From a virus: 64,000 bases of DNA. The notes under the pieces were generated by a model. The model was not told the DNA's origin, searched no databases, and saw only the letters and a program-made list of their open reading frames with translations. Shown piece after piece: positions 3,089 through 46,234 of the stretch; position 1 is the first letter of the stretch, and each line of letters starts with the position of its first letter. The stretch covers positions 124,001 through 188,000 of IMG/VR virus record IMGVR_UViG_3300020165_000007; one strand, given 5' to 3'. The translations under genes were made by a program, and so were the position numbers.

Positions 3089-3335
3089 CTTTATCTATTT
3101 TTTTATAATCAAACTTTTTACCTATTTCTTTATTAAAAAAACTTCCTTGTGATTCTGCCATTCTAAACTTAGTAAAGATAGAGTGAGGCACTTCACTATA
3201 TTCATATTGTATCTCACCTTTAAACGTCACTAAAAGTTTTTGTGTCGACGTATCATACTCCACAATCTTGACTGTTGAAGAGTCAATCTCACAGATTATC
3301 TTCTTACCTAATATTCTTTCTGTTTTAATCGACAT
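3081..3335 (-). CDS. KTSC-domain protein
   Basis: Eighty-four residues. The C-terminal half (EYSEVPHSIFTKFRMAESQG, then SFFNKEIGKKF) matches the KTSC domain: an aromatic/valine/proline stretch, then a Ser-Gly-x-Phe-Phe-Asn motif and a basic end. KTSC is a small domain found alone in phages and fused to lysyl-tRNA synthetases; its molecular role is not established. It overlaps its neighbours by 11 and 8 nt. Confidence 0.75.
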   Translation of the reverse strand: MSIKTERILGKKIICEIDSSTVKIVEYDTSTQKLLVTFKGEIQYEYSEVPHSIFTKFRMAESQGSFFNKEIGKKFDYKKIDKDG

Positions 3336-18794: not shown

Positions 18795-20651
18795 TCATTT
18801 TGATTTAAAATCACCATTATCATATACATAATAAGTATCAGTTCCATTACCTTTTCTTGACACTACATACCATGTTTTACCACCGTCCTCACCTGCTTTT
18901 TTCGCAGATAAGTAATTATATACATCCTCACTTAAATTATCCCTTACGAATGATTTGAAACTATCTTCCTCATTCTTATACGTAACAATCTCGGCAGATG
19001 GTAGAAGATTACGGACCTTATTTACTATTTCCATAATTATTCCATCAAATTCACTCATGTCGTACTTTCCTTGTGAGGCTGTTTCTATAAATGCATCAAC
19101 TATAGAATAACCCATACTGTCCTGAACGCTACCTAAACCTCCAGGTACAAGCCTTTCAATAATATTAACCATAGTTCCAACAAAGCTATTAGGGTCATCT
19201 TCCCCTTTCTGTCTAAGAACATCAAAAAGAACTCCAACTCTTTCGTAGGCCCATTCACTTAATCCTTGTTTCCATATTGTATTAAAATCAATTTTAAAAT
19301 TATTTAAATCCGTATCAAACATATCGGAAAGCCCGTCTAATAATGAGTTCCAACCAGACTCAATTAAACCTCTCAGAATATCAAATACAAATATAATAAC
19401 CGATTGTGCAAACCAACCTACAAAATAACCAACAAGTGATTGTGCCAAATAAACTAATGCATATTTCAACTTTTTACCTCCAGTTTCTCCTGCGGATGTC
19501 CTAATTAAACCCAAATACTGCTTATTTAAACCTGCAAATTGATTTGTAAGCATAAATTGACCTACTGACGTTCTAGGGTCAATTAATGATTTTACGGCCT
19601 CCATTCTTTGACCTTTAGTTAATAATTGTTTTACTGTTAATAATAATTCACCTGAAAATGACTTCATAACGTCTCCCATTATTTCTCCCACACCCTCTCC
19701 GGACTTCTCCCAAGTGTCATTAAAAATACTAAAAAACGGTATTTCACCATCCCTAATTAAATTTGTTATTTCAGAATCTAAACCTGCATCGGCAAGAACT
19801 TCTGCGGCCGCTCCGTCTTTTTTAATTTCTAACTGGTTTAATAATCTTGTTATTGCAACTGCATAAGCTTCTGTAATTTCTTTAATTTTTTTATCTGAAT
19901 TTTGTTGACTTTTGGCAATTGCGACATCAGTTATGTAACCCGCATTTAATTCCTTAATTTCCTGTTTTACCTTATCAAAACTTTTTACAAACAATGTAAA
20001 GAAATCTTGAATAAATAATGTTGGAGTTTTATCATCAATAACTTTTCTGAGCTTTCTCATTTGTCTCTTACTTAGTTTAGTAGGGGCTACACCTGATAAA
20101 GTATCTACAAAACTACTTGGTTTATTAACGTATATATCTAATTGTTTTTTTACAGTATCAAAAATCCCATTTACATTAATAGGTTTTTGTGGTGAGTCAC
20201 CAACAACACGATTTAATGCCGTTACTAACTCGGTACCGGGTTTCTTCATTCCTTTTCTTAATTTTTCTAAAAATTCTCTCTCACTCATACTATTCTTTCT
20301 TTGGATATCCTTTAAAAATCCTTTATAAAATTCTAATGCAAGTTCATCGTCGTCATTTATAAGTTTACCCAATAGAGTTTTTTCAGTTTCACCCATTTCG
20401 GATACTCTACCATTAAAATCTTCTAAAATATAAATAAGACTATCAAAATTTTCTCTTTTGAACGTTGTACCACCTATTTCTATTTCTAAAAAATCACTTT
20501 TTTTAAGTGCCTTATTGACATATTTTAATATGTTATCGTATACACTGCTACCAATACTTTCTTTTAATATCGTTTTAGGTAAAGACATAATTTCCTTCAT
20601 CCTATGTATTTCAATAAGAATATTAGGGTTAGTTAAATGTAATAGGTCCAT
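18795..20651 (-). CDS. Candidate capsid-targeted membrane-active protein
   Basis: A 618-residue protein. The first 34 residues (MDLLHLTNPNILIEIHRMKE, then IMSLPKTILKE-S) resemble the cleavable leaders in this window, with LKE-S as the likely cut. Residues about 70-390 are helical and charged. A hydrophobic stretch near residues 398-430 (LVGYFVGWFAQSVIIFVFDI) could span a membrane. A TATTTATT motif lies 10 nt before the ATG. A large injected protein with a membrane segment would fit a role in crossing the inner membrane at entry, but that is conjecture. Confidence 0.72.
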   Translation of the reverse strand: MDLLHLTNPNILIEIHRMKEIMSLPKTILKESIGSSVYDNILKYVNKALKKSDFLEIEIGGTTFKRENFDSLIYILEDFNGRVSEMGETEKTLLGKLINDDDELALEFYKGFLKDIQRKNSMSEREFLEKLRKGMKKPGTELVTALNRVVGDSPQKPINVNGIFDTVKKQLDIYVNKPSSFVDTLSGVAPTKLSKRQMRKLRKVIDDKTPTLFIQDFFTLFVKSFDKVKQEIKELNAGYITDVAIAKSQQNSDKKIKEITEAYAVAITRLLNQLEIKKDGAAAEVLADAGLDSEITNLIRDGEIPFFSIFNDTWEKSGEGVGEIMGDVMKSFSGELLLTVKQLLTKGQRMEAVKSLIDPRTSVGQFMLTNQFAGLNKQYLGLIRTSAGETGGKKLKYALVYLAQSLVGYFVGWFAQSVIIFVFDILRGLIESGWNSLLDGLSDMFDTDLNNFKIDFNTIWKQGLSEWAYERVGVLFDVLRQKGEDDPNSFVGTMVNIIERLVPGGLGSVQDSMGYSIVDAFIETASQGKYDMSEFDGIIMEIVNKVRNLLPSAEIVTYKNEEDSFKSFVRDNLSEDVYNYLSAKKAGEDGGKTWYVVSRKGNGTDTYYVYDNGDFKSK

Positions 20652-20724: not shown

Positions 20725-20949
20725 ATGAAATACTCAGTTAAGGAAGTTGTTATTTATAAAAAAGAAACAGTAACAATAAGGGAAGTACATAAAGTTGGTA
20801 GTACTTATGCTTATGTTCTGAGTAGTGGTGAAAGTTGTTTTGAGGATGAATTACGTAAATCATCTAAAGACCGTTATGTCTCACATGTCAATAACTTAAT
20901 TAGAGAGAATATGGACGATATTTTAAAGTACTGTTTTAGTCCTGTCTAA
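20725..20949 (+). CDS. Small early-type protein of unknown function
   Basis: Seventy-four residues, soluble, with a beta-rich first half (VVIYKKETVTIREVHKVG) and a helical C-terminus. It has its own host-type promoter and no partner genes on its strand. Its 3' end overlaps the end of the convergent gene by 14 nt. A small host-takeover or regulatory protein is likely from context, but nothing is recognisable. Confidence 0.7.
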   Translation: MKYSVKEVVIYKKETVTIREVHKVGSTYAYVLSSGESCFEDELRKSSKDRYVSHVNNLIRENMDDILKYCFSPV

Positions 20950-22747
20950 AAACAGATGAGTCGCAGCTATATTGTGTTAGTCTCATATCTGGTTCCGACT
21001 TTCTTTTACGTAATCCATCATAAAAATATATGGTGCCGTCAATATCATAGGATATCTCTTGTTCCCTTTCAACACTACTATCGTTTTTTCTTCTATTATA
21101 TTTTATTTCTTTTGCGTTTGGGTGATTGATAACACACGGATAGTCTTCTTTAAATTTATTCTTTTTTTCTTCGTCGCTTTTTGGTTTATCATCTGTACCC
21201 GAAACTAGTTCAAATATAGTTTTATTATTAGATTCCTCTAAAGTACGTAACGCTTCATAAAGTGATTCCATTGACTCCTCAGCTACTTTATCAGGGTTTT
21301 GACCTAACGCCCTTATAGTAGACGCCCCTAAAATTGTAGTAAATATACCACCCATCTGTAATCCCATATTTAAAGTAGATTTTAAAAAGTTTGTTTCTTC
21401 AAGTATTTCAGATACGGCCTCTAAAGATTTTTTAGTTAATGGTTTTGACATACCAGACTCATTCAATTTAATAATTGCGTCGTCTACATATTTTTTAAAA
21501 TTACCCGCCTTTGTGATTAATTCTCTACTTGAGGCATAAAAAGAATAAACAAGAGACCTTTCTTCTTTTGACAGATTTTTTAACGCCGACCAAATTACTG
21601 TAGGTTTAACCTCACCTGACAAGAATTTAATATAGTTTGTTATAAATCCAATAACCCTAACGAATGATGTTTTACCTATCTTTGTCCCTAATTGTTTAAA
21701 TACTGAAGAGCCTATGTCACCGAATAAAGGTATCAAACCGATAGATAATGATATAAGTGCACCAAATTTATCATTTTTATTTTTCCATAAATCGTAAGCA
21801 TGTGCAAATTCAATAGAAAATGATGCGACTGGATTTATAAAAAACATAAGACCAGCTAATAAATCACACCAAAATTCTTCATAGGCATAATCAATACCTA
21901 TTAATTTAAATGCCCCAACATTCTTACCTTCAGTACCAAACCATTCATCAAAAATACTATCCTCACCACAAACAAGTGAAGATAATTGTTTGAAACCAAT
22001 CTCTGACATTTCAGAAGCTTCATTCCACCATATTTCTAAACCACTTGCTTGTAAAACTTCTTTTTTAGGTTGTTGGTAGATATTATTGTTATCATTTTTA
22101 TAGTATTTAAAATACCAATCAATACTAAAAGGATTATTTTTATTACTCTCAGTGTTTAGATTCTTAGATATTTTACCCCCTAATAGAGTACGATAATTAG
22201 TGCCGTTTATTTTTAGTTTTTGAGAAACGCCATTAGGGTAAATTCTCTGTAGTTGGTCATATAACGAATTTCTTAATCCACTCTCAAACTCTTCTCCGTA
22301 TTTTTCACCGTATTCATTAAACCAATCGTCCATAGTTTTATCTGATGAGTTATTAATAGGAGACTCGATAAAACTTTCATACAACTCCTTCCAGTTAGAA
22401 TTAATTGTTTTTATTACTTTAGTGTTTTCCGGAAAATACATTACTCCTTTTGGTGTGTTATACATACACCACCCTTTATACACGGGGTGTTCGACTGTTC
22501 CTGCAACTGCTAAATCAGGACTACCACAATTTTTAGGGTACCCGAAATCACTCCCTGTTATATCTTCATCCGATTGATATTGTTTAATTTTAATAGGGTC
22601 ATTCTTTATTGAGGATGATATTTTACCTACCTCAACATCTCTTAATGGTCCTGATGGTTTTTTATCTTGTTCAGATAAAACTTTAGACCTATCGTAATTC
22701 ATAAGTCTATTCATCTCCACTAACTGTATTCTAATATTTTCCTCCAT
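20936..22747 (-). CDS. Candidate capsid-targeted membrane-active protein
   Basis: A 603-residue protein. The N-terminus (MEENIRIQLVEMNRLMNYDR then SKVLSEQ) is an amphipathic helix ending LSE-Q. Residues about 275-345 contain two or three hydrophobic segments (LLAGLMFFINPVASFSIEFA, LISLSIGLIPLFGDIGS), and another weaker one lies near residues 480-500. The arrangement parallels the 618-residue protein at 18.8 kb: leader, soluble region, central membrane segments. The two may act together in genome entry. Late-type motif spacing to the ATG is only 4 nt. Confidence 0.72.
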   Translation of the reverse strand: MEENIRIQLVEMNRLMNYDRSKVLSEQDKKPSGPLRDVEVGKISSSIKNDPIKIKQYQSDEDITGSDFGYPKNCGSPDLAVAGTVEHPVYKGWCMYNTPKGVMYFPENTKVIKTINSNWKELYESFIESPINNSSDKTMDDWFNEYGEKYGEEFESGLRNSLYDQLQRIYPNGVSQKLKINGTNYRTLLGGKISKNLNTESNKNNPFSIDWYFKYYKNDNNNIYQQPKKEVLQASGLEIWWNEASEMSEIGFKQLSSLVCGEDSIFDEWFGTEGKNVGAFKLIGIDYAYEEFWCDLLAGLMFFINPVASFSIEFAHAYDLWKNKNDKFGALISLSIGLIPLFGDIGSSVFKQLGTKIGKTSFVRVIGFITNYIKFLSGEVKPTVIWSALKNLSKEERSLVYSFYASSRELITKAGNFKKYVDDAIIKLNESGMSKPLTKKSLEAVSEILEETNFLKSTLNMGLQMGGIFTTILGASTIRALGQNPDKVAEESMESLYEALRTLEESNNKTIFELVSGTDDKPKSDEEKKNKFKEDYPCVINHPNAKEIKYNRRKNDSSVEREQEISYDIDGTIYFYDGLRKRKSEPDMRLTQYSCDSSVFRQD

Positions 22748-22759
22748 ATCAAATAAATA

Positions 22760-23440
22760 TTACGTTAAAGTATTTGATTTACCTCTATTAATTCCAGATT
22801 CCCATTTACTATTTTGGTCAATCATATTTCCCTTACCTCTACTTATATTAGAATTCCATACATTAATAGTTAATTGATTTGCAGGTCCACGAGTTAAACC
22901 TGTTTCCCATGTAGAAGTATTACTGTTTGTAGAACTAGAATCTCCTCCTGTAGTTTCTCCTCCACCTTCATCTTGTTCGTTAAACTCAGACTCTACATTA
23001 CCATATATTTCGGGATACCTAAGACCAAACATTTTAAGTAATTCACCTGCCTTAGCATTCGCTTCATCCTCTATTTTACCACCAACATTTTGTATTTTAC
23101 CTTCAAGTTCACCGTCTTCATTTTGATGATGATGAACCAATTCATGTGCGACCGACCTCATAACGTCTTGTAACGCTCTTTCTTTAGTATATACCGTAAC
23201 TTCAGCATTCTCTATATCTGCATTTTCACCGTCTTCGTACCTATAAACCGCAGTTGTATCTACTTTGGATTTATCCTCCGTGTAATCAATACGAACGTTA
23301 TTTTTTATATTTAATTCTTTAACAGTTAAATCAACAAACTTATCTAATAAAATTCTTTCATTATTATCAAATGATTCATCACCCTCATTAATACTCATAA
23401 GGGTTTTTATTCTATTGATATCTTCGTTAAGTAAATTCAT
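22760..23440 (-). CDS. Candidate capsid-targeted zinc metallopeptidase
   Basis: About 226 residues from the ATG at 23440; a TTG two codons earlier is unlikely. The leader MNLLNEDINRIKTLMSINEG ends INE-G. A zincin motif, VAHELVHHHQ (HExxH), sits near residues 100-110 with a possible downstream Glu ligand (EDEANAKAGEL). After a Gly/Glu/Ser/Thr-rich linker come three short C-terminal repeats of the type W-x-(S/T)-x-(L/I)-x-RG. A packaged peptidase could act on head proteins during maturation or on host proteins after injection. Confidence 0.78.
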   Translation of the reverse strand: MNLLNEDINRIKTLMSINEGDESFDNNERILLDKFVDLTVKELNIKNNVRIDYTEDKSKVDTTAVYRYEDGENADIENAEVTVYTKERALQDVMRSVAHELVHHHQNEDGELEGKIQNVGGKIEDEANAKAGELLKMFGLRYPEIYGNVESEFNEQDEGGGETTGGDSSSTNSNTSTWETGLTRGPANQLTINVWNSNISRGKGNMIDQNSKWESGINRGKSNTLT

Positions 23441-23457
23441 ATTCAATAAATACTACG

Positions 23458-28277: not shown

Positions 28278-28688
28278 ATGACTGTACATGAACTTAGTGA
28301 CTACTTCAACCAATCTCCGAACATGGCAAAAGTTTATAAAGAACATAAGTCCATCGGTCGTTTGATTCGTAGTAATATGTTTAAGTACTCTAATCCTCGT
28401 CGTTGGAATAATAAGGACTTGACTTATAAAATCACGTACATTAAGGTCGACAAGAGTGAAAATTTAATAGTCAATCTCAAAGTCTCAGGTACGATGGGTA
28501 ATAATTGGGGTGGAGAAAAGGGGACTTGTGTTACTGAATATGTTAAAGTTAATTTCTCAAGTTCCCGTAGACGTAATGATGATATTCGTAGGGCGGTTCG
28601 AGAAGATGTTCAAAAGTTTTTCCGTCTTTTCGGTATGGATAGTTATAGGGTTGAGATTGGTAAGATTAAAGTGTGTAAAGAACTTTAA
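28278..28688 (+). CDS. Small early-type protein of unknown function
   Basis: A 136-residue basic protein with an Arg-rich stretch (SSSRRRNDDIRRAVRED) and a C-terminus VEIGKIKVCKEL. The end resembles the C-terminus of the protein at 38825 (DKVKICKITFE), which also has a host-type promoter, so the two may be distant paralogues. Arginines are mostly CGN codons. Ends overlap the convergent gene by 4 nt. Function unknown. Confidence 0.75.
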   Translation: MTVHELSDYFNQSPNMAKVYKEHKSIGRLIRSNMFKYSNPRRWNNKDLTYKITYIKVDKSENLIVNLKVSGTMGNNWGGEKGTCVTEYVKVNFSSSRRRNDDIRRAVREDVQKFFRLFGMDSYRVEIGKIKVCKEL

Positions 28689-31270
28689 AGTTTTACCGTA
28701 AAATACTTAAAAGCTAACGGACCTAATTTCCTCAATTCTCGGTTAATATTATTAGTAGTTAACTCTTGCTCTTTATCTTGTAGATTTCTAAATGCTACTG
28801 ATATCATAACCTGTTGTGACTTCTCTGCAAGTTGCAACAGGTTTTCTTTTTCATCCTCATCTTCAATTTGTTGGTAACTACCCTGTAATTCTTGTATCTT
28901 TAAATATTTTTCCAAGAAGTCTCTACCGCTCCAAGTAAAATCAGGTGATTGCATCATATTAACAATACCACTATCTCTTAACGCCTTTAAAAAATCAAAG
29001 ATATAACCACCATTATCCATTTTTAGAAGGGGTAGTAATGGTTTCATTTCATCAATAAAATTTTCATTAATTGTTGTAATAGACTCAGGATATGTATCAC
29101 TAATAGTACCCTCATTTTTATCGGGGTAATCTGAATTCTTTAATATATGTCTAAGTAAGTTTAAAGAACCAATTCTTTTGTCGTTAGTATCCACAACAGT
29201 CCAAGGAACCTCACCTTTACCCAAGTCAAAAACTTTTTCTTTGTATTCTGTATAGTCATCCCACTTTTCTAAAGACTTTTCATCATTAGGTGAAAATTTC
29301 CAATATTTTAAAGGCGAAGACTTTCTTAAATCAAATCTTTTTTCTTGTGTTTTAGGTGTTATTGATAACCAAAACTTATATAAGTCAGTTCCCCTACTAA
29401 CTAAAGACTTTTCAAAATCATTAACATTATTCATAAACCCCTCATATTCTTCATCAGTTCCATATCCCATAACTGGTTCCACAATTCCTCTGTTATACCA
29501 ACTACGGTCAAAAAAAGTAATTTTACCAGGTTCAATATGTTGTTCATATCTTTTAAACCAATCCTCCCTTTCTTCAGGTGTTGGTATTCCCAAGGCAACC
29601 ACATTAAAATATTTTGGGTCTAAATATTTAGTTATGGTTCTTATCGTTGAGCCTTTACCTGCAGTGTCTCTACCTTCGAATACTACTGCGATAGATTTAC
29701 CTGTCTGCTTGATGTGTTCTTGTAATTTTAATAACTCAACTTGTAATGGTAGTAACTCTTTTTTAAATTGTTTTTTACCTATGGAAGATATCTCAGGCTC
29801 CTCGCCTCCGTAAACTAACTCATCTTCAACATTAAAATCATCATCTTCAAATTCTGACGATTTTCTATTACCGATAGAATTAACTAAGATTTCTAAATAT
29901 TCTCTGGCGTTTATTCTTGGGTTACCTGATTTTAAAAATTTTCTTTCTAAGTTTCTTATTACTAAGTTGTTTATATCCTCATCTTTTAGTTGAGATAGTA
30001 AATCTTCCATTTCTGACGGGTCAATATCTTTACTTCTTAATACGTTAGATAAATCTTCTTTAGATTCATCCATTTGACTGGGAAGGTCTATCAATCCTTT
30101 ATCTTTCATTATTCTCGCCAGTCTATCTCCATATAAATCAATAACTCTTTTTAAGAATAAATCAGGATTTTTTCTAATATATTGAATTATATCAAACCTG
30201 ACATTTTTAGAGTATTTTCCAAATAAGTCTGATATTTTGTCGTCTTTTCTATACGAGTCTTTACGATAAAACAGGTTTTTTATTTCTTTATTACTGACCT
30301 TAGGAAACGTAATAATTTTACAATCACCTCCAACCTTACCCTGTGGTAATGAAATACTATTTACACTTTTCCCACTTTTATAATTATTAATAACTAAATC
30401 AATTAAACTATCGGTGTCATTTAAACAATATGAAATATATTCATCATTTAAAATAGAAAAAATCCATTTTAGTGACTTTTCTTCACCGGACACCGCACTC
30501 TTCCCCTCTGTTTCTCCTACAACGAAAGATACTTTCATCATTAGTTTTTTATATGGATTAAACTCATCATCTTTATCCATTAAATCTATAGGTCTTTTTA
30601 AATCATCTATTTCATACCCATCCTCAACCATTTTAATTTTTGCGGCCTTAAACCCACTAGATAATGAACCTAAGTCAAATCGTTCACCTGGTTGTGTCAA
30701 TTTAACTGAGTAATAATCCTCACCGATTTTTATATCTTCTTTTCGTTGAGATATTATAGGTTTACCTCCTGTAAGTCCTGCTAATAACCCTTCAAAATTA
30801 AATCCTCTACCGTCTTTATCTTTTTTAAATGATAAGAAGTACTCATAAAATCTAATTTTATCAACTAATCTTTTTAATGTGTTTTCTAAATCAATATCTT
30901 TATTAATGTCAAAAAATGTTAGTCCTTCACTACTTAAAATCTTTTTTATCACATTACTTGAAGACATCTTTGTTTTTGGTATCGGACCTAACGTAGACAT
31001 TATTTTACTTAGAGTTGTTGATGTCGCGTCTATTTCTTCTTTAATTACATCTTGATTTTCTTTAACCCACACATCTTCATCACCAACTAAATTAAGGGTT
31101 CTACCGTTATCCCACTCAACATAATATAATGGTTCATTGCTCCATGGGTCAGACCCAATACCAATAACAGTACCTTTAGTGCCGACAGTTATTGGGGAGT
31201 AAGGGTCACTCATAACAATTAAAGTGACTCTATCACCTTTTTTTAAATTTGGGTTAATATCCATACTCAT
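28685..31270 (-). CDS. ppk2: Polyphosphate kinase 2 fused to a DUF4314-like and other domains
   Basis: An 861-residue protein. Residues 1-65 resemble DUF4314, a small SH3-like domain: KGDRVTLIVMSDPYSPITVG and VEWDNGRTLNL. Residues about 70-490 are unrecognised. Residues about 500-740 form a PPK2 domain: Walker A FEGRDTAGKGST near 531-542, GIPTPEER, FFDRSWYNRGIVEPVMGY, and WKFSPNDEKSLEKWDDY. PPK2 uses polyphosphate to phosphorylate nucleotides, or the reverse. The last 120 residues are helical. PPK2 enzymes are normally about 230-300 residues, so the N-terminal 490 residues are an unusual addition. It has the late-type promoter context of virion genes. Confidence 0.88.
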   Translation of the reverse strand: MSMDINPNLKKGDRVTLIVMSDPYSPITVGTKGTVIGIGSDPWSNEPLYYVEWDNGRTLNLVGDEDVWVKENQDVIKEEIDATSTTLSKIMSTLGPIPKTKMSSSNVIKKILSSEGLTFFDINKDIDLENTLKRLVDKIRFYEYFLSFKKDKDGRGFNFEGLLAGLTGGKPIISQRKEDIKIGEDYYSVKLTQPGERFDLGSLSSGFKAAKIKMVEDGYEIDDLKRPIDLMDKDDEFNPYKKLMMKVSFVVGETEGKSAVSGEEKSLKWIFSILNDEYISYCLNDTDSLIDLVINNYKSGKSVNSISLPQGKVGGDCKIITFPKVSNKEIKNLFYRKDSYRKDDKISDLFGKYSKNVRFDIIQYIRKNPDLFLKRVIDLYGDRLARIMKDKGLIDLPSQMDESKEDLSNVLRSKDIDPSEMEDLLSQLKDEDINNLVIRNLERKFLKSGNPRINAREYLEILVNSIGNRKSSEFEDDDFNVEDELVYGGEEPEISSIGKKQFKKELLPLQVELLKLQEHIKQTGKSIAVVFEGRDTAGKGSTIRTITKYLDPKYFNVVALGIPTPEEREDWFKRYEQHIEPGKITFFDRSWYNRGIVEPVMGYGTDEEYEGFMNNVNDFEKSLVSRGTDLYKFWLSITPKTQEKRFDLRKSSPLKYWKFSPNDEKSLEKWDDYTEYKEKVFDLGKGEVPWTVVDTNDKRIGSLNLLRHILKNSDYPDKNEGTISDTYPESITTINENFIDEMKPLLPLLKMDNGGYIFDFLKALRDSGIVNMMQSPDFTWSGRDFLEKYLKIQELQGSYQQIEDEDEKENLLQLAEKSQQVMISVAFRNLQDKEQELTTNNINRELRKLGPLAFKYFTVKL

Positions 31271-31315
31271 AAAAAATACCTTTTATCATAAATATACTAA
31301 ATAACCTAATATTTA

Positions 31316-31333: not shown

Positions 31334-31972
31334 ATGAAGGTAATTTTAACTGAAAGTCAATTTAACACGTTATTAAAAGAGAATTACAAGGAGAAGGTCG
31401 GAGGTTCTCTAATGAATCTTAGTAAATTCTCAAATAAAGTAGTCAGAGACGCGTCAAACCAACTAAAATTTGATTTTAGATTTTTAGTCACTTATGGTGC
31501 AGGTATAGGCTCTATACTACAATCGGTATTTGATTATTTAGAAGGTAACTTTACAGGTCTGAGTGAAACTCAGTTAGCGGGATTGGCTGTTATGGCGGTA
31601 GGGGTTGTGTTTTTTGAAAATAAAGATTTAAAGTCTCAAATAAAAAATATTGAGTCGATGGGTTTAAGTTCTGAATTAGATAACGTTGTTAGTTATACTC
31701 AAAATTTAAAAAATAAATTTTCTAATATTTTAAGGGTTTTAGGTTTGTCTATTCACAGAACATCAAATATTATATCATATAGTTTTTTAATACCATTACT
31801 CTCTATTATTATAGAAATTGTAACATTACATGGTGTTGAATCTTCCCAATTTAGTATGTTAATTGAGAGTTTATTAACATCGGGTCTTATTGCCGTAGAG
31901 GGTGTAGCGTTAAGAGATATATTAATGAAGGCTGGTGATATTATTAGTCAAAAGACTGTTAATCAAAAGTAA
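31334..31972 (+). CDS. Candidate capsid-targeted membrane protein
   Basis: A 212-residue protein starting MKVILTESQFNTLLKENYKE, a leader with LKE-N. Three or four hydrophobic segments follow: near residues 50-68, 82-97, 140-165 and 175-192. It is one of few plus-strand members of the leader-bearing group and has its own TATTTATA. Membrane topology with a cleavable leader suggests delivery into the host envelope. Function unknown. Confidence 0.7.
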   Translation: MKVILTESQFNTLLKENYKEKVGGSLMNLSKFSNKVVRDASNQLKFDFRFLVTYGAGIGSILQSVFDYLEGNFTGLSETQLAGLAVMAVGVVFFENKDLKSQIKNIESMGLSSELDNVVSYTQNLKNKFSNILRVLGLSIHRTSNIISYSFLIPLLSIIIEIVTLHGVESSQFSMLIESLLTSGLIAVEGVALRDILMKAGDIISQKTVNQK

Positions 31973-32291: not shown

Positions 32292-32666
32292 TCATAATTC
32301 AAAATCTTTTTTTAATTGTTCAATATCCATTCTAAGTTTTTCATCTCTTTCAATAGAATCTGTAGCACTTTCAAAGTCTACGTCTTTTTTGTTTTTAGAT
32401 GAATAATCAGTATCGGTAGAATATGCTTTATTATGTGAACCTCCCGAATCTAACCCCTTTTCTAATCTAATTAATCTTTTATGTATTTCCTTAATAGAAT
32501 TTTCTACATCTGACCAATTTTCAATACTTTGTAAAATTATAGTATCTGATAAAAATTCAGGTAAATCATAATCAACAACGTCTGATGTATTCCCGTAAAG
32601 ACCTTGTTCTTTAATAGTCTGTATAATTACTTTATTTAGTTGGGTTTCTGTTAACTTAATTTTCAT
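32292..32666 (-). CDS. Candidate capsid-targeted small protein
   Basis: A 124-residue protein beginning MKIKLTETQLNKVIIQTIKE, followed by QG: the leader is almost the same type as those at 31334 (KVILTESQFN) and 61.4 kb (KLKESDLEN). The mature part is acidic and helical. It overlaps the zincin gene upstream by 4 nt. Function unknown. Confidence 0.72.
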   Translation of the reverse strand: MKIKLTETQLNKVIIQTIKEQGLYGNTSDVVDYDLPEFLSDTIILQSIENWSDVENSIKEIHKRLIRLEKGLDSGGSHNKAYSTDTDYSSKNKKDVDFESATDSIERDEKLRMDIEQLKKDFEL

Positions 32667-35493: not shown

Positions 35494-37374
35494 ATGGGAA
35501 AAGTTATTGGAATCGATTTGGGTACAACTAATTCATGTGTTTCTGTAGTTGAAGCGGGTACTCCTATCGTAATAGTCAATTCTGAAGGTAGAAGAACAAC
35601 ACCTTCAATAGTTTCATTTAAAGATGGTGACCGCATTGTTGGAGATGCAGCAAAACGTCAATCTATTACAAATCCAGAGAATACAATATACTCTGTTAAA
35701 CGTTTTATCGGTAGTACCTATTCAGAGGTTTCGAAAGAAGTTAAAAAAATGCCATATAAAATATCTAAAGGTGACGGTGGAAAAGTCATAATAAATGTTA
35801 ATGATAGAGATTATGTACCACAAGAAATTTCGGCAATTGTTTTACAAAATTTGAAAAAAACTGCTGAAGATTATTTAGGAGAAAAAGTAACACAAGCCGT
35901 TATTACGGTACCTGCATATTTTAACGATTCACAAAGAAACGCAACAAAAGAAGCGGGTGAAATTGCTGGTCTTGAGGTACTTAGAATAATTAACGAACCT
36001 ACTGCAGCTGCACTATCTTACGGTTTAGATAAAGAAGGAGATAAAAAAGTTGCAGTATATGACTTAGGTGGTGGTACTTTTGACATATCTATTTTAGATA
36101 TGGGTGATGGGGTATTTGAAGTTTTATCCACTAACGGAGACACTCATTTAGGTGGAGATAACTTTGACGAGGTTTTAATTGATTGGATGATAAATAAATT
36201 TAAAGAGGAGTCGGGTATTGACGTATCTAAGGATTCTATGGCGATACAGAGACTTCGTGACGCATCTGAGAAATCTAAAATCGAATTATCATCGTCAAGT
36301 TCAACAGAGATTAATTTACCTTATCTCTCTGCAGGTTCAGAAGGTCCAAAACATTTTGTATGTAAATTAACTAGGTCTGAATTTGAAAGGATGGTAGAGG
36401 ATTTAGTAAAGAAGACCATTTCTCCTTGTCGTAAGGCGGTAAAATCGGCAAATCTAAAAGTAGATGATATTGATGAAGTAATTTTAGTAGGAGGTTCAAC
36501 AAGAATGCCATGTATACAAAATGCCGTTGAAAAGTTCTTTAAGAAGACCCCATCTAAAGGAGTTAACCCTGATGAGGTAGTCGCTATGGGTGCGTCTATA
36601 CAGGGTGGGGTACTTGCTGGTGATGTTAATGACGTTCTTTTATTGGATGTAACTCCTTTATCTTTAGGTATTGAAACAATGGGTGGTATTATGACAAGGT
36701 TAATCGAATCTAACACGACAATACCCACATCAAAATCTCAGGTATTTTCAACGGCGGTAGATAATCAACCCGCTGTTGATATTCATGTATTACAAGGTGA
36801 AAGACCTTTATCTTCAGACAATAGAACGTTAGGTAGATTCCAATTAACAGATTTACCCCCATCACCAAGAGGGATACCTCAAATAGAAGTGACGTTTGAT
36901 ATTGACGCCAACGGTATTATAAATGTAAGTGCAAAAGACAAGGCTACTGATAAGGTGCAAAATATACGTATAGAATCAGGAAATGGTTTGTCAGATGAAG
37001 AAATTGAAAGAATGAAGAAAGACTCTTTAAAGAATGAGGAGTCTGATAATAAAAAGAAATCTGAGATTGAAAAATTAAATGAGGTAGACTCTATGATTTT
37101 TCAAACCGAAAAACAGATAAAAGAATTCGGGGATAAATTAAGTGACACAGACAAAGACAATTTAAATAATAGTTTAAGTAAATTAAAATCCTCATATGAG
37201 GAAAAAGATTTTAATTCTATTGACGAGGATTTAAATTTGTTAAATGAAACATGGTCATCAATATCAACAAAATTATACGAAAATAATCAAGAAGATGATT
37301 CTAATCAATCAGATTCTTTAGATGACGATATAGATGTAAATGATGTGGAATTTGAAGAAGTAAAAACACATTAA
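35494..37374 (+). CDS. dnaK: Hsp70 chaperone DnaK
   Basis: A 626-residue full-length Hsp70. The ATPase domain has [13 protein letters not shown], the phosphate-2 loop [14 protein letters not shown] and the adenosine motif [11 protein letters not shown]. The interdomain linker is [13 protein letters not shown], followed by the substrate-binding beta domain ([14 protein letters not shown]) and a helical lid. The tail ends NDVEFEEVK, as in bacterial and especially Bacteroidota DnaK. All key residues look intact. It is followed after 18 nt by an FKBP gene, not by grpE or dnaJ. A complete DnaK is rare in phages; it may support folding of large virion proteins or rescue under stress. Confidence 0.96.
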
Positions 37375-37392
37375 AATTAAATAAATAAAATT

Positions 37393-37821
37393 ATGAAAGT
37401 TAAAAACGGAGACAGTGTCAAGGTCCATTATATCGGCACTTTAAATGATGGAAATGAGTTTGATAATTCATATAAAAGAGGTTCTACACTTGATTTCAAA
37501 GTAGGTGGAGGGCAAATGATTAAAGGATTTGATGACGCCATGGTTGAGATGGAAGTAGGTGATAAAAAAAGTATTAACATTAATCCTGAAGAGGCGTATG
37601 GTCCTCGTAGAGAGGAGGCGATAACTTCAGTCTCTAAAGATAATTTTCCACCTGATTTTGTAGCTAAAGAAGGTGAGATGGTACAGGGAAGTACAGAGAG
37701 CGGACAACCAATCACAGCGTTAATTTTAGAGATAAAAGATGATGAAATTATCTTAGATATGAATCATCCTTTAGCGGGAGAAGAGTTAAATTTTCAAATC
37801 GAACTTTTAGAAATAGTATAA
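37393..37821 (+). CDS. FKBP-type peptidyl-prolyl isomerase (SlyD-like)
   Basis: A 142-residue FKBP. HYIGTLNDGNEFDNSYKRGS, then GGGQMIKGFDDAMVEMEVGD and PEEAYGPRREE are the family motifs. The insert between residues about 70 and 120 is the flap (IF) chaperone domain of SlyD/SlpA proteins, and the end (NHPLAGEELNFQIELLEI) closes the FKBP domain. It lacks the His/Cys-rich nickel tail. It catalyses proline isomerisation in the cytoplasm and probably works with DnaK as a folding unit; the two are cotranscribed. Confidence 0.92.
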   Translation: MKVKNGDSVKVHYIGTLNDGNEFDNSYKRGSTLDFKVGGGQMIKGFDDAMVEMEVGDKKSININPEEAYGPRREEAITSVSKDNFPPDFVAKEGEMVQGSTESGQPITALILEIKDDEIILDMNHPLAGEELNFQIELLEIV

Positions 37822-39841: not shown

Positions 39842-39924
39842 GGAGGGATGCCAGAGTGGTTAATGGAGCAGTTTGCTAAACTGTCGTCGGTAACGACGCG
39901 TGGGTTCGAATCCCACTCCCTCCG
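39842..39924 (+). tRNA. tRNA-Ser (GCT)
   Basis: Acceptor GGAGGGA pairs with TCCCTCC, anticodon GCT at 39875-39877, long variable arm (CGTCGGTAACGACG), T-arm GGTTCGAATCC. No encoded CCA. Reads AGC/AGT. Confidence 0.95.
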
Positions 39925-39937
39925 CAAAAATTAAAAA

Positions 39938-40054
39938 ATGAACTTTAAATATAACATATCAAACAATACAGAACATTTTGAATACACGGTGTATTTGACT
40001 GAAGAAGAATTCAAATCAATTAATTTCGAAAATTACTCAACTACATTTGGTTAA
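39938..40054 (+). CDS. Very small protein
   Basis: Thirty-eight residues, acidic, with an open frame of MNFKYNISNNTEHFEYTVYL and TEEEFKSINFENY. It sits between tRNA-Ser and a host-type promoter. Composition looks like real coding sequence, but size makes it uncertain. Confidence 0.4.
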   Translation: MNFKYNISNNTEHFEYTVYLTEEEFKSINFENYSTTFG

Positions 40055-40077
40055 ATGAATAATAAGTCATATATTTG
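40047..40077 (+). promoter_or_regulatory. Bacteroidota-type promoter
   Basis: TTG at 40047-40049 and TATATTTG at 40070-40077, spacing 20 nt. Confidence 0.7.
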
Positions 40078-40097
40078 TAGAACAAAACAAATAAACA

Positions 40098-40352
40098 ATG
40101 TCAAAAGAAAAACTGTATCGTAGTTCAAATGGTGACTACCTTTACTTGTTCAACTGGAAATGTGGTGGGTTCAATGACGTGTGGGCACCCAATAAGCGTG
40201 AAGCTTATAAGCGTGTAATGAAGGAGCGTAAGGAGTCGGAGGAAAAATACCCTAATCATTCTAAACTTCGTCCTGACTATGATTCAATGCGTCGTTGCAC
40301 TTATAGTGAATATCAGGAACAAAATAAAATGGGTTGGCTACTATCAATCTAA
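40098..40352 (+). CDS. Small early-type protein of unknown function
   Basis: An 84-residue basic protein (WKCGGFNDVWAPNKREAYKR). All seven arginines use CGT, the extreme of the CGN group. Followed after 6 nt by tRNA-Lys, so the two may share a transcript. Function unknown. Confidence 0.72.
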   Translation: MSKEKLYRSSNGDYLYLFNWKCGGFNDVWAPNKREAYKRVMKERKESEEKYPNHSKLRPDYDSMRRCTYSEYQEQNKMGWLLSI

Positions 40353-40358
40353 TTATAT

Positions 40359-40432
40359 GACTTCGTAGCTCAGTTGGTTAGAGCATCTCACTTTTAATGA
40401 GAGGGTCCTGGGTTCGAGTCCCAGCGGGGTTA
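40359..40432 (+). tRNA. tRNA-Lys (TTT)
   Basis: Anticodon arm TCTCA-CTTTTAA-TGAGA with anticodon TTT. The acceptor GACTTCG/CGGGGTT contains three G-T pairs. T-arm CTGGGTTCGAGTCCCAG. Confidence 0.92.
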
Positions 40433-40522
40433 CTTCATCTACCTAAAATTATATCAACATGAAATATTAGCAATAACAAACAAATCAGCTTAATTTAAAA
40501 TTTATAACTAATGTAAACAAAG

Positions 40523-40712
40523 ACATTCTCTGAGTAGGGTAAGAATAAAGGAGAGTGTTATAACAAAACTTCTTGCGTGAGTTGGTAAGGTAGCAGCGCA
40601 AGTCTTGTCAGACGCTTACCAAGTCATGGACGAGTGGTGTAAGAAGGTTCCGTTCAAGTTAATGAGAGCGGGTAGACCCAAACAATGGTGGAGTACCAAT
40701 CAAAATCTCCAC
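40523..40712 (+). ncRNA. Structured RNA region of unknown type in the tRNA array
   Basis: About 280 nt between two tRNAs hold no convincing gene but several stems. ACATTCTC (40523) pairs with GAGAGTGT (40551). CTTCTT near 40569 pairs with AAGAAG near 40650 and encloses GTTGGTAAGG and GTCTTGTCAGAC, like a degenerate D-arm and a tRNA-Asp-type anticodon arm. GTGGAG (40688) pairs with CTCCAC (40707). No normal T-arm is present. It could be a decayed tRNA or a small RNA. Confidence 0.35.
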
Positions 40713-40718
40713 TGAAAT

Positions 40719-40800
40719 ACCGATGTGGCGTAATTGGTAGCCGCGACAGTCTTAGGAACTGTTGTCGAAAGACGTGTAGGTTCGAGTCCTATCATCGGTA
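40719..40800 (+). tRNA. tRNA-Leu (TAG)
   Basis: Acceptor ACCGATG with CATCGGT, anticodon arm ACAGT-CTTAGGA-ACTGT, variable arm GTCGAAAGAC, T-arm GGTTCGAGTCC. Reads CTA. Confidence 0.93.
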
Positions 40801-40807
40801 CTTATAT

Positions 40808-40883
40808 GGTGACTATAGTTCAGTTGGTTAGAACGTCTGATTGTGGTTCAGAAGGTCGTCGGTTCGACTCCGATTAGTCACCC
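40808..40883 (+). tRNA. tRNA-His (GTG)
   Basis: Acceptor GGTGACT with AGTCACC, anticodon GTG in loop TTGTGGT, T-arm CGGTTCGACTCCG, C discriminator as expected for His. Confidence 0.94.
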
Positions 40884-40889
40884 ATTATA

Positions 40890-40961
40890 AGGTCAGATGT
40901 CCGATTGGAAGGTGTAGGTACGCAATACCTATAACGGTGGTTCGAATCCATCTCTGACCTC
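40890..40961 (+). tRNA. tRNA-Cys (GCA)
   Basis: Acceptor AGGTCAG with CTGACCT, anticodon arm TAGGT-ACGCAAT-ACCTA, T-arm GGTTCGAATCC. The D-arm is short, and the discriminator is C, not the usual U, which is unusual for Cys. Confidence 0.88.
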
Positions 40962-40984
40962 AATTTGAATGAAAACTGTAAATT

Positions 40985-41263
40985 ATGTATGACCCAAAAC
41001 AAGACCCTGCCTTTACAAATAACCCTTATCTAACAGATTATGAATTTAATTATGATTTAATGATGGACCCATGTAGTAACCCAAATCCACCTTCATGGTG
41101 TGAAGACGGTACTGGAGGTCCTTGTAATAACCCTGACCACGGACCTTATTGTGATGGTGTTCACGCAGTACCATGTGATGGTGGAATTATGATGTTATTT
41201 CTTTCTGCAATATTTGGGGTATCATTAATCAAAAAAAGATTTGTTTTATCGAGATACATGTAG
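40985..41263 (+). CDS. Small protein with PID-CTERM-like sorting tail
   Basis: Ninety-two residues between tRNAs. The body is Pro/Asn/Cys-rich (PNPPSWCEDGTGGPCNNPDH). The C-terminus has VPCDGG, a hydrophobic segment (IMMLFLSAIFGVSL) and a basic end (IKKR). This layout resembles the Bacteroidota PID-CTERM sorting signal (PIDGG, hydrophobic helix, Lys/Arg). No N-terminal signal peptide is obvious, which argues against classic export; a simple C-terminal membrane anchor is the alternative. Confidence 0.65.
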   Translation: MYDPKQDPAFTNNPYLTDYEFNYDLMMDPCSNPNPPSWCEDGTGGPCNNPDHGPYCDGVHAVPCDGGIMMLFLSAIFGVSLIKKRFVLSRYM

Positions 41264-41271
41264 TATATTTG
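41241..41271 (+). promoter_or_regulatory. Bacteroidota-type promoter of tRNA-Arg
   Basis: TTG at 41241-41243 and TATATTTG at 41264-41271, spacing 20 nt, 19 nt before the tRNA. Confidence 0.72.
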
Positions 41272-41290
41272 TATTCGTTATTTAACATAT

Positions 41291-41364
41291 GCACCCCTAG
41301 CTCAGTTGGATAGAGCATCTGCCTTCTAAGCAGACGGTCACAGGTTCGAATCCTGTGGGGTGTA
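41291..41364 (+). tRNA. tRNA-Arg (TCT)
   Basis: Acceptor GCACCCC with GGGGTGT, anticodon arm TCTGC-CTTCTAA-GCAGA, T-arm ACAGGTTCGAATCCTGT. Reads AGA/AGG, the arginine codons favoured by the virion-type genes here. Confidence 0.95.
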
Positions 41365-41383
41365 CAAAAAATCTACAATAGAT

Positions 41384-41413
41384 TTGGTAGTTCAAAAAAG
41401 TTACTTATCTTTG
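41384..41413 (+). promoter_or_regulatory. Bacteroidota-type promoter of tRNA-Leu
   Basis: TTG at 41384-41386 and TATCTTTG at 41406-41413, spacing 19 nt. The sequence after it (TAGTGTTCTTT) repeats that after the tmRNA promoter. Confidence 0.7.
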
Positions 41414-41431
41414 TAGTGTTCTTTACAGAAT

Positions 41432-41517
41432 GCCCGGATGGTGGAAGTGGTAGACACGACAGACTTAAAATCTGTTTCGCCGAACGGTGAGTGTGGGTTC
41501 GAGTCCCACTCCGGGTA
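41432..41517 (+). tRNA. tRNA-Leu (TAA)
   Basis: Acceptor GCCCGGA with TCCGGGT, anticodon TAA in loop CTTAAAA, long variable arm (CGCCGAACGGTGAG), T-arm GTGGGTTCGAGTCCCAC. Reads TTA. Confidence 0.95.
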
Positions 41518-41606
41518 CTAAGATAAAGTTCTTTGATATGATGGTATAGTAAATAAGTAAAACTTTCGCTGATGACCCCTCTGCGACAAAAAAGGGGAAC
41601 CAATAC

Positions 41607-41680
41607 GGGGACGTAGCTCAATTGGTTAGAGCATCAAGCTTATATCTTGAAGGTCGGAGGTTCGATTCCTCTCGTCCCTA
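41607..41680 (+). tRNA. tRNA-Ile (TAT)
   Basis: Acceptor GGGGACG with CGTCCCT, anticodon arm TCAAG-CTTATAT-CTTGA, T-arm GGAGGTTCGATTCCTC. Anticodon TAT reads ATA directly, so no lysidine enzyme is needed. Confidence 0.93.
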
Positions 41681-41699
41681 CTAAAACTATAATAAAATG

Positions 41700-41791
41700 G
41701 GGGGTCGTCTCTTCGTCCTGATGTGTGGCGACCTCCCGATATAACAAATCGCGTGTGAGGTGAATATGGGGCTTCGGCCCCTACCTCACAC
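41700..41791 (+). ncRNA. Two strong hairpins, unknown small RNA
   Basis: Hairpin 1: GGGGGTCG (41700) pairs with CGACCTCC (41729). Hairpin 2: GTGTGAGGT (41753) pairs with ACCTCACAC (41783) and encloses a second perfect stem, GGGGC-TTCG-GCCCC. They are GC-rich in an AT-rich genome and have no T-run, so simple terminators are unlikely. Position in the tRNA array suggests a stable RNA or processing signals. Confidence 0.45.
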
Positions 41792-41797
41792 ACAACA

Positions 41798-41979
41798 AGC
41801 CGTGTAGTCGTGAAAGGAGTGGTGACTGGAAGCGACCTGAGTACTAGAAAACTCAGACCTGTGTGAAAGCAATCTGTGGGTTGGATGCGCCGACTAAGTA
41901 GTATCTTTTGATACCTTACCCTTATTCTAGTTTGGGTGTCGTTCGGAGAGTAGTGGGTTCGAATCCCATCACATTGGCT
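41798..41979 (+). ncRNA. tRNA-like structured RNA
   Basis: The 3' end has a normal T-arm (GTGGG-TTCGAAT-CCCAT, 41953-41969) followed by CACATTGG. Two 5' partners are possible. AGCCGTGT at 41798 pairs with ACATTGGCT with one bulge, giving a molecule of about 180 nt. CAATCTGTG at 41870 pairs with CACATTG with a CT bulge, giving about 108 nt. Internal stems CTGAG/CTCAG and GTATC-TTTT-GATAC are clear, but neither makes a regular seven-base anticodon loop. Confidence 0.4.
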
Positions 41980-41989
41980 AAATTTAAAT

Positions 41990-42092
41990 CACTAAACCCT
42001 CCTACTGACAAGGAGGGGAGGTAAAGATGAACGGGGTATGTCAGAATCCTCAGTAATCGGTGTAACGGTTCGAATCCGTCAGGGGTATTGTC
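41990..42092 (+). ncRNA. Second tRNA-like structured RNA
   Basis: A T-arm-like element (ACGG-TTCGAAT-CCGT, 42065-42079) follows a strong hairpin, CCCTCCT (41997) with AGGAGGG (42011). I find no 7-bp acceptor partner for the 3' AGGGGTATT, and no anticodon arm. It may be a decayed tRNA or part of one longer RNA with the element before it. Confidence 0.3.
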
Positions 42093-42125
42093 CTTGTAAC
42101 TATCGGAGTATACACCACCTCAATT

Positions 42126-42198
42126 GCCACTATAGCTTAGTTGGTAGAGCAGCTGATTTGTAATCAGCAGGTCGGCGGTTCGAGTCCGTCTAGTGGCT
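42126..42198 (+). tRNA. tRNA-Thr (TGT)
   Basis: Acceptor GCCACTA with TAGTGGC, anticodon arm GCTGA-TTTGTAA-TCAGC, T-arm GGCGGTTCGAGTCCGTC. Reads ACA. Confidence 0.95.
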
Positions 42199-42212
42199 CC
42201 ATATAAAAAAGA

Positions 42213-42292
42213 GGGGGTATCGCATAGTGGCAATTGCGGCTGACTGTAAATCAGCTCCTTCGGGTTCGGAGGTTCGAGTCCTTCTACCCCCA
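42213..42292 (+). tRNA. tRNA-Tyr (GTA)
   Basis: Acceptor GGGGGTA with TACCCCC, anticodon arm GCTGA-CTGTAAA-TCAGC, long variable arm as expected for bacterial Tyr, T-arm GAGGTTCGAGTCCTT. Confidence 0.94.
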
Positions 42293-42295
42293 CAT

Positions 42296-42369
42296 TCTCC
42301 CTTAGCTCAGTTGGTTAGAGCATCTGACTGTTAATCAGAGGGTCCTTGGTTCGAGCCCAAGAGGGAGAG
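42296..42369 (+). tRNA. tRNA-Asn (GTT)
   Basis: Acceptor TCTCCCT with AGGGAGA, anticodon arm TCTGA-CTGTTAA-TCAGA, T-arm CTTGGTTCGAGCCCAAG, G discriminator. Only 3 nt after tRNA-Tyr, so they are processed from one transcript. Confidence 0.95.
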
Positions 42370-42389
42370 CGGCGCCTGAAGACTGAGAG

Positions 42390-44218: not shown

Positions 44219-46234
44219 TTAGTTAAAGAACTCTTTCTTAATTTGATAATTACCATTAGTGTATTTTATTTTCTTAATATAAATTCCTGATGAGGTTATC
44301 TCACTTAAATTAATCTTAGCACCGTAGATATTATAGTATTCTATATTTTCTACGGTGTTTTGATTTTCAGGAATTTGTATTCCTTTAGAATTAATAATTT
44401 GTTTAACCGACTCAGGGATTTCAGTTTCTAACATCATACCATTCTCACACTGTAGACCAAATACGGAAATAAAGTCTAATATATCGTCAACACCAATAAT
44501 ACTATCCTGATTAAAATCTAACGGACTACATTCTACAGTTAATCCAAAGTTTTGTAGTAAAGGAAATAAGTCAGAGGTACCTACAATACCATCTTCATCT
44601 AAATCCCAAGGACAATCACCTAATGGTGGACATACATCAACAGGAGGACCCACATAAAAAGGTAATATCTCTTCATCTCCCCAATTTCCTGTTACTGTGT
44701 TTAGAGTGTCATTACCATTTATAATAGAAGTCGGACCCCCACAAGGGTAAAACATACCATTTCCAAATAAATCTTCTAAAACTAAAACATAATTTCCTTC
44801 TTCTAAACAATATGTGTTAGTTTCAACCTCACATGCGTATACTTCATTATCATAGTAACCCCCCTCATCAATTAATTCCTCAGTATCTGAGTTGTATAGA
44901 CTCCATTCGAATCCATAAGGTAAAGCATCAAATTCTATAGTAATGTCTATAAAAGTACCTTCATAATTGTTAATTTGAAGGGTATTAGTATTATTATCTT
45001 CATATATGTCACCTAATACTTCTACATTAACCTCTATATCTGAGATACCGTATTCTATATTGATATTAGGTATTATTATAACTTCACTTTCAGCAAAACC
45101 TAAATTTCCTACCCAATTAATAGAACTACTTTCACCATTTAGAGAATAATTAATAGTGGCTTCAGTTAATGTATCACCAAAACTCTGTAAGTTGAAAATT
45201 ATATCCTTTGTGGTTGAACATCCCAAATTAGGAACTGATAACCCATTAATAGAAACGTCTATCCCCCCAACGGCACCACATGCTAAATTATTATCCACAA
45301 CTCCAGGTCTAAAAGTTTCTAATTGGGATAACATTCTTAAAGTCTGTCCTTGGGTAAAACTTTCCATACAATTATCAGTAGTATAATCCATAAAATTCTC
45401 TATTAAATCACCACCACAAGCACCTCCATTTAAGGGACATCCAATGTTTCCTGTAGTGACAGGTGTATCACATACTTTATCCCCTTGTGTTTCACAGTTA
45501 GTGTTGGTAGGGGTACATGTACTTGTTTGATTAAATGTGTGAAATAACCCACAATAGTGTCCCATTTCATGAACCAGAGTTCTATTTAACCCATAACTAC
45601 CTACATTAGTAATTCCAAAAGCGTTAGTCCCCATAAATACCCCATAATTAGTTGGGGGTAAATAAGCGAACCCTAACGGACTACCAAAAGGCGCTATAAA
45701 AACATTACAATAATTATTTCTATCATATCCAATTTGATTGGATACTTGAATGTGGTTATTGTAAAAAGCCGTAGCGTCCCACTCCTCTATATTTAAATTA
45801 TCCCAATCATAATATCTAATACCTTCAATAGGTTCTCCATCAGTAGAAGCATTTGCTATACAAAAATTTATCTGTGTGTTTGCAGTAGGTACATCACTAA
45901 ATTCTCCCGCAAAATTATCATTTAAATTATCAAAAGCTTCTTGTATAAATTCCACAGGTAAATGGTAGTCAGTTCCGTAGGGTTCACCAAAATGAATTAC
46001 ATGAACTATTACAGGAATTGTAATAGGTAAATCTGATTTGTTTGAAATTCTTATCGTCTCTTCTGATTTTTTCGCTATAGATTCAAGTTTTTGGTAGCTC
46101 CTTTTAAATTTAGGGTCTTTTAGTTGCTGTTCAAATAATATATCAGTACCACATCTCGTGGGTTCCTGAGAAAATATTATGTTATTAAATAAACTAAATA
46201 AAAATACTAAAATTAAAGGTCTTAAAAATGTCAT
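44219..46234 (-). CDS. Secreted M43-family metalloprotease with T9SS type A-like tail
   Basis: A 671-residue protein with a signal peptide (LILVFLFSLFNNIIFSQ). Residues about 60-310 are an M43 (pappalysin/cytophagalysin) catalytic domain with the long zinc motif VHEMGHYCGLFHTF near residue 220 and a Met-turn candidate (NFMDYTTDNCM). CARDB-like and beta domains follow. Two dockerin-like repeats come next (DLDEDGIVGTSDLFPLL; DFNQDSIIGVDDILDFI). The last 70 residues resemble a type A T9SS sorting domain (YYNIYGAKINL, SSGIYIKKI, KEFFN). It should be exported by the host T9SS. Confidence 0.9.
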   Translation of the reverse strand: MTFLRPLILVFLFSLFNNIIFSQEPTRCGTDILFEQQLKDPKFKRSYQKLESIAKKSEETIRISNKSDLPITIPVIVHVIHFGEPYGTDYHLPVEFIQEAFDNLNDNFAGEFSDVPTANTQINFCIANASTDGEPIEGIRYYDWDNLNIEEWDATAFYNNHIQVSNQIGYDRNNYCNVFIAPFGSPLGFAYLPPTNYGVFMGTNAFGITNVGSYGLNRTLVHEMGHYCGLFHTFNQTSTCTPTNTNCETQGDKVCDTPVTTGNIGCPLNGGACGGDLIENFMDYTTDNCMESFTQGQTLRMLSQLETFRPGVVDNNLACGAVGGIDVSINGLSVPNLGCSTTKDIIFNLQSFGDTLTEATINYSLNGESSSINWVGNLGFAESEVIIIPNINIEYGISDIEVNVEVLGDIYEDNNTNTLQINNYEGTFIDITIEFDALPYGFEWSLYNSDTEELIDEGGYYDNEVYACEVETNTYCLEEGNYVLVLEDLFGNGMFYPCGGPTSIINGNDTLNTVTGNWGDEEILPFYVGPPVDVCPPLGDCPWDLDEDGIVGTSDLFPLLQNFGLTVECSPLDFNQDSIIGVDDILDFISVFGLQCENGMMLETEIPESVKQIINSKGIQIPENQNTVENIEYYNIYGAKINLSEITSSGIYIKKIKYTNGNYQIKKEFFN

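Follow-up and report, generated by a model that had tools for sequence, protein, structure and literature searches.

A predicted class I polyphosphate kinase 2 as an exchangeable part of a phage DUF4314 protein

The classes of polyphosphate kinase 2 (PPK2) differ in the residue that follows the RSxY motif, which is Asn in class I, Gly in class II and Glu in class III (PMC8776046, PMC11641546). Class I enzymes use nucleoside diphosphates (NDPs) and not nucleoside monophosphates (NMPs) as substrates; the reaction can run both ways, with Mn2+ promoting synthesis in one class I enzyme, and in the class I enzyme PA0141 phosphorylation of NDPs is preferred 75-fold over synthesis (PMC8776046). Virus-encoded ppk2 is already known as an auxiliary metabolic gene from its presence and its expression in metatranscriptomes, and has been read as metabolic (PMC9636769, PMC13188868); the accessible portions of those reports describe neither the architecture of the proteins nor targeting peptides or fusions. 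In phage T4 cleavage by the protease gp21 takes place after L/I-x-E; a short propeptide at the N-terminus serves as the capsid-targeting sequence (PMC9026906, PMC7411985), which is carried by the internal proteins IPI-III and Alt and removed by gp21 (PMC9026906). Our search of the accessible literature gave no report of a phage PPK2 in a virion, and no account of a phage-only clade, of nuclease-like or lysozyme fusions or of targeting-like peptides of PPK2. Here we describe a PPK2 gene in a window of 64,000 nucleotides, positions 124001-188000 of the 270,383-bp phage record IMGVR_UViG_3300020165_000007 (G000), which encodes a protein of 861 residues.

The gene lies on the minus strand at 152.7-155.3 kb of G000. 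The original prediction, made from the letters of the window alone, had placed the open reading frame (ORF) correctly and had claimed a PPK2 domain with an intact Walker A motif, and this was borne out by a Pfam match and by the sequence EGRDTAGKG. Solved PPK2 structures matched at up to 221 bits, with the class I enzymes of F. tularensis (FtPPK2, 5LL0/4YEG) and S. meliloti (SmPPK2, 3CZQ) giving 200-215 bits over the domain. The FtPPK2 residues with proposed roles are D62, K66, D117, R118, R174, R178 and K184 (PMC4748334). These aligned with D535, K539, D588, R589, R645, R649 and K655 of the window protein and were identical in 7/7 cases; the loss of catalytic residues relative to PPK2 structures, raised beforehand as a possibility, was not seen. 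The DRSWYNR motif, which had been described as the lid, is intact but is the Walker B motif together with Asn593, the class I signature after RSxY; the lid is a separate element (RFDLRKSSPLKYWKFSPND) in which the conserved R-X2-3-R and Lys are present, and it too is intact. From its residues and family the protein very probably catalyses the PPK2 reaction.

The proposed conversion of polyphosphate and nucleotides into nucleoside triphosphates (NTPs) fits a class I enzyme as far as NDPs are concerned, but not for NMPs (PMC8776046). The enzyme might instead run in reverse, with synthesis of polyphosphate, phosphate storage or effects of polyphosphate on proteins as the outcome, or the domain might be mainly structural. 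Reversibility and the effect of Mn2+ noted above would allow the former; the 75-fold preference of PA0141 points the other way, and all the mapped catalytic residues are conserved throughout a deep clade of phage enzymes, so that both ideas seem very unlikely.

That clade comprises 22 phage PPK2s, some of them from phages of 634-735 kb, and stands apart from the bacterial class I PPK2s with support 100/100. Two other PPK2s from phage records (L012 and L013) fell among the bacteria in the same tree, and a search of genome contigs with the PPK2 module alone returned ordinary bacterial class I enzymes. The window protein has the P-loop fold family, both Walker motifs, the class I Asn and the lid residues of FtPPK2 and SmPPK2, but it differs from them in belonging to the phage clade, in carrying an additional helical domain of ~90 residues and in being fused between a nuclease-like part and a part of a DUF4314-type protein. 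The helical domain is common to the window protein and the stand-alone phage PPK2s, and most bacterial matches begin after it.

The DUF4314-like SH3 module that had been predicted at the start of the protein was confirmed, with a Pfam score above the family cut-off. The roughly 490 extra residues said to precede PPK2 are indeed present, but resolve into DUF4314 (residues 1-70), a PD-(D/E)XK-like domain (75-402) and the phage-only helical domain (403-490). The earlier architecture was incomplete: it missed the nuclease-like domain, the ~125 residues that follow PPK2 and the fact that a single phage protein, split in two, makes up the N- and C-terminal parts. Relatives of the C-terminal part are stand-alone phage proteins of ~200 residues that consist of DUF4314 and the same C-terminal domain. 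Because of these relatives the window protein is read as a common ~200-residue DUF4314 phage protein with ~660 residues inserted between its halves. The insert itself consists of two modules, the first spanning residues 75-402 and the second residues 403-735, with PPK2 and its helical domain.

A full-length ortholog, 85% identical, is encoded on contig L073, and the identical protein on 3 other contigs. An assembly artefact, misassembly or chimera was therefore ruled out for the gene. No second copy was found in the window's phage, which has a single PPK2 in its 270,383 bp.

In another relative, on contig L074, the first ~402 residues, the C-terminus and the neighbouring genes are retained and an unrelated domain replaces PPK2. 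The DUF4314, nuclease-like and PPK2 parts recur together in L223, and in L166 a short N-terminal tag of the kind discussed below precedes the nuclease-like domain and PPK2. These sequence comparisons show modular insertion and exchange of cargo, with PPK2 as the module that can be exchanged. The domain that takes its place in L074 (query L074:6985-7640; L097-L160; ..ICDSxKFCxxQGxITFGQL..PWFxPQ..) is undescribed and very common in phages. Other phage proteins carry it with a wide range of partners and tags, for the most part over hydrophobic-x-Glu joints.

Residues 75-402 had no Pfam or PHROG family, and protein or alignment searches of viral contigs with this domain gave only five contigs. A DNA-level pattern built on its FEG..AG core gave 110 stretches and revealed a wider family (L164-L273), the members of which are mostly stand-alone phage-encoded proteins of 460-510 residues; one of these, taken as a representative, had no match in Pfam, PHROGs or an annotated phage collection. 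Across 29 aligned members E160, D179, S188 and K190 are invariant, where E160 lay within the search pattern and SLK was required when distant members were chosen, while D179 was not a selection criterion. Structure prediction had been suggested for residues 70-490; an AlphaFold2 (AF2) model of residues 75-402 (predicted local distance difference test, pLDDT, 77; predicted template modelling score, pTM, 0.71) suggested a helix-strand-strand-helix core. The best match in a viral fold library was an unnamed phage protein. In a Foldseek search of the PDB the top three matches were the restriction enzymes ThaI and HinP1I (3NDH, 2FKC), with RecE (3H4R) and SSO0001 lower, but all were weak (E=0.065 or worse, template modelling scores of about 0.2-0.3). 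All four are PD-(D/E)XK enzymes. The order E..D..SxK and the apparent core of the model resemble these nucleases, which carry D/ExK where the window domain has SxK. The domain is thus described as PD-(D/E)XK-like and as a putative, not a proven, nuclease, and its family as a further undescribed phage domain.

A nuclease-like module beside PPK2 raises the possibility of a two-enzyme conflict effector, in which the former would attack competitor or host DNA and PPK2 would adjust nucleotide or signalling pools, in anti-defence or superinfection exclusion. The two domains stay fused in four relatives, which form one subclade in the PPK2 tree (96/92), and the swapped cargo of L074 is as found in variable effectors. 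The nuclease-like domain is absent from most phage PPK2s, however, no neighbouring defence or toxin gene was recognised, and the fold is weakly supported, so that this role seems unlikely.

The N-termini of stand-alone phage PPK2s offer a different indication. These are short peptides that end in hydrophobic-x-Glu, such as FIIE/E, FINE/E, FMNE/S, LINE/E and IIIE/S (the slash marks the candidate cut). With the L/I-x-E motif taken from T4, and an expectation computed from the bodies of the same proteins, 18 of 19 distinct N-termini had a site within the first 34 residues against 6.1 expected (P=9e-9, an optimistic value since the 19 are related and not fully independent). A looser motif, written after the sequences had been seen, was present in 19/19 against 2.5 expected. 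In L051 and L052 the part after PPK2 is a lysozyme, of a different kind in each (Phage_lysozyme, E=5e-12; Phage_lysozyme2, E=5.5e-13). These fusions (L051:5929-7875, L052:5926-7905) are from freshwater phages and have the same linker, LNE/TEGADP or INE/TEGADP. A wall enzyme and an enzyme with a cytoplasmic substrate in one chain would make most sense if the chain were packaged and cut.

The machinery for such cutting appears to be present. An S77 prohead protease was found in the window's phage (E=1.1e-23) and in 9/10 further records, 6 of them above the curated cut-off and those of three giant phages weaker, and a gp23 major capsid protein (MCP) in the same phage (E=1.7e-62) and in 9/10 further records. 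In six MCPs, including that of the window's phage, the site that aligns with the T4 site is always LINE/A or LINE/S; by homology it is LINE/ASSS in the window's phage. Like the T4 internal proteins, the tagged relatives begin with a short peptide ending in hydrophobic-x-Glu, and their phages, as well as that of the window, have the protease and an MCP with the homologous site. Processing by the prohead protease and delivery in the head are judged likely for these tagged PPK2s, and head delivery is plausible for the family as a whole.

The window protein differs from the T4 internal proteins in having candidate sites at internal joints and a metabolic kinase as cargo. It has no N-terminal tag (a propeptide of ~10-20 residues ending in L/I-x-E) and, since it starts with DUF4314, it is not classed as a T4-type internal protein. 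Sites occur at 3/3 joints (residues 78, 402 and 736), with a chance of 0.006 that is optimistic because the joints were chosen by eye, and they are kept in both aligned relatives, L073 and the cargo-swapped L074. In the stand-alone DUF4314 proteins the matching linker holds a single L/I-x-E in 6/6 cases against 0.29 expected, some of the six being close relatives. For the window protein itself virion association is plausible by analogy with its relatives, and prohead-protease processing and head delivery are possible.

The absence of a tag would also suit an ordinary auxiliary metabolic enzyme, which would act in the cytoplasm of the infected cell, raise NTPs from host polyphosphate and never be packaged, with the N-terminal peptides of the relatives serving folding or membrane or compartment targeting. 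The intact catalytic residues and the published metabolic reading of expressed viral ppk2 agree with this. It leaves unaccounted for the protease-motif peptides on 18/19 PPK2s, the occurrence of such peptides on otherwise unrelated proteins of the same phage and the lysozyme fusions across such sites, and we regard it as possible but rather doubtful.

The explanation that we favour, as a good possibility not quite amounting to a probability, is that a class I PPK2, carried as an exchangeable module, is packaged, cut by the protease and injected, and supplies NTPs at the expense of polyphosphate. The 861-residue protein would be made late and enter the prohead core, where the S77 protease would cut it at the joints IKE/E, MDE/S and INE/N. 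The freed PPK2 would be injected with the DNA and use host polyphosphate to turn ADP and GDP, perhaps also deoxy-NDPs, into triphosphates early in infection, a supply that we infer from the class of the enzyme. The nuclease-like module may act on the DNA of the host or of a rival and thereby add to this nucleotide pool, and the DUF4314 part may do in the window protein the job of the targeting peptide in its relatives. Of the roles put forward earlier, the fuelling of DNA packaging has the least support.

Several points weigh against this explanation. Besides the missing tag, the relatedness of the 19 N-termini and the choice of joints by eye, L/I-x-E is short and common, with 13 [LIVM]xE sites across the 861 residues. 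No depletion of L/I-x-E was found inside phage PPK2s or tagged proteins relative to bacterial PPK2s or other phage proteins. Packaging of the window protein is argued from relatives and joints, and the nuclease assignment from a motif and weak fold matches. The full-length AF2 model (pLDDT 58, pTM 0.35) was too poor to give the arrangement of the domains.

Table 1 Features of the PPK2 gene in the window (slash, candidate cut)
Feature	Position	Strand	Basis
Whole coding sequence, 861 residues from an ATG start, stop codon included	28685..31270	-	ORF call; orthologs
C-terminal helical domain, residues 737-861, second half of the DUF4314 ("chassis") protein	28688..29062	-	~200-residue DUF4314 relatives, E down to 1e-15
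Possible prohead-protease site INE/N, residues 734-736, PPK2/C-terminal joint	29063..29071	-	L073 INE/N, L074 INE/G; MCP site LINE/A
PPK2 domain, residues 499-719, class I	29114..29776	-	Pfam E=6.2e-70; PDB matches; tree
Lid module, R645, R649, K655	29297..29338	-	Alignment; PMC4748334
Walker B DRSWYNR, with D588, R589 and class I Asn593	29489..29509	-	Alignment; PMC8776046
Walker A GRDTAGKG, with D535 and K539	29651..29674	-	Alignment to FtPPK2
Phage-only helical domain, residues 403-490	29801..30064	-	Common to stand-alone phage PPK2s; most bacterial matches start downstream
PD-(D/E)XK-like domain, residues 75-402	30065..31048	-	Family by pattern and profile; AF2 pLDDT 77; weak Foldseek matches
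Possible prohead-protease site MDE/S, residues 400-402, joint where PPK2 is swapped in L074	30065..30073	-	Identical in L073, L074
Putative nuclease motif E160...D179...S188-x-K190	30701..30793	-	Invariant in 29 members
Possible prohead-protease site IKE/E, residues 76-78, DUF4314/middle joint	31037..31045	-	L073 IKE/E, L074 IKE/Q
DUF4314 (SH3-like), residues 10-67, first half of the DUF4314 ("chassis") protein	31070..31243	-	Pfam E=1.5e-10
TATTTAT element, promoter-like, 18-24 nt before the ATG	31288..31294	-	Like element 10-29 nt before many ORFs, including protease and portal genes

The genes for the MCP, prohead protease and portal are all on the minus strand at 112-120 kb of G000. In the minus-strand block that adjoins the PPK2 gene (120-150 kb), 14/20 ORFs have an early L/I-x-E site against 5.6 expected. 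Both observations support the earlier placing of the gene in a virion-type, minus-strand group, and many minus-strand neighbours have capsid-targeting-like N-termini. Unrelated proteins of the window share a few kinds of N-terminal peptide (such as M..ILNEV.R..ELMGINES or MK.ILTES...LLKEN), which are candidate capsid-targeting peptides; the ORFs concerned are at 3325-3834, 9538-10962, 18795-20651, 20936-22747, 22760-23446, 31334-31972, 32292-32666, 61059-61487 and 63064-63756. In the window's phage, regular expressions for two of the peptides matched nothing but N-termini (3 and 4 ORFs) and never the inside of proteins; one for a third class of tag gave no N-terminal matches.

Across G000 the TATTTAT element is found 10-29 nt ahead of the ATG of many ORFs (55/86 occurrences within 200 nt upstream), and is likely to be a phage promoter or leader element. 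It also precedes genes elsewhere, so that late expression is not shown by the element alone. Scans for sigma-70 promoters and terminators gave no more matches than in shuffled sequences. The window also holds ten clustered tRNA genes at 39842-42370 (Ser, Lys, Leu, His, Arg, Leu, Ile, Thr, Tyr, Asn) and host-like genes at 4523-6544, 35494-37374, 37393-37821 and 44219-46234, for a ClpB/AAA+ unfoldase, an M43 metallopeptidase and a DnaK-like chaperone beside an FKBP-like protein, the last two assigned by sequence.

It is quite possible, although we would stop short of calling it probable, that a lineage of T4-like giant phages packs PPK2 in the head as part of a protease-cut polyprotein that also has nuclease-like or lysozyme parts, and injects the kinase to give an ATP-independent supply of NTPs from host polyphosphate at the outset of infection. 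If this is true, the cell would receive an energy-supplying enzyme from these phages themselves, and the polyphosphate stores of the host would be tied directly to the success of infection. The targeting peptides and joint sites would then amount to a sequence rule that predicts the cargo injected by giant phages for which virion purification has never been achieved.
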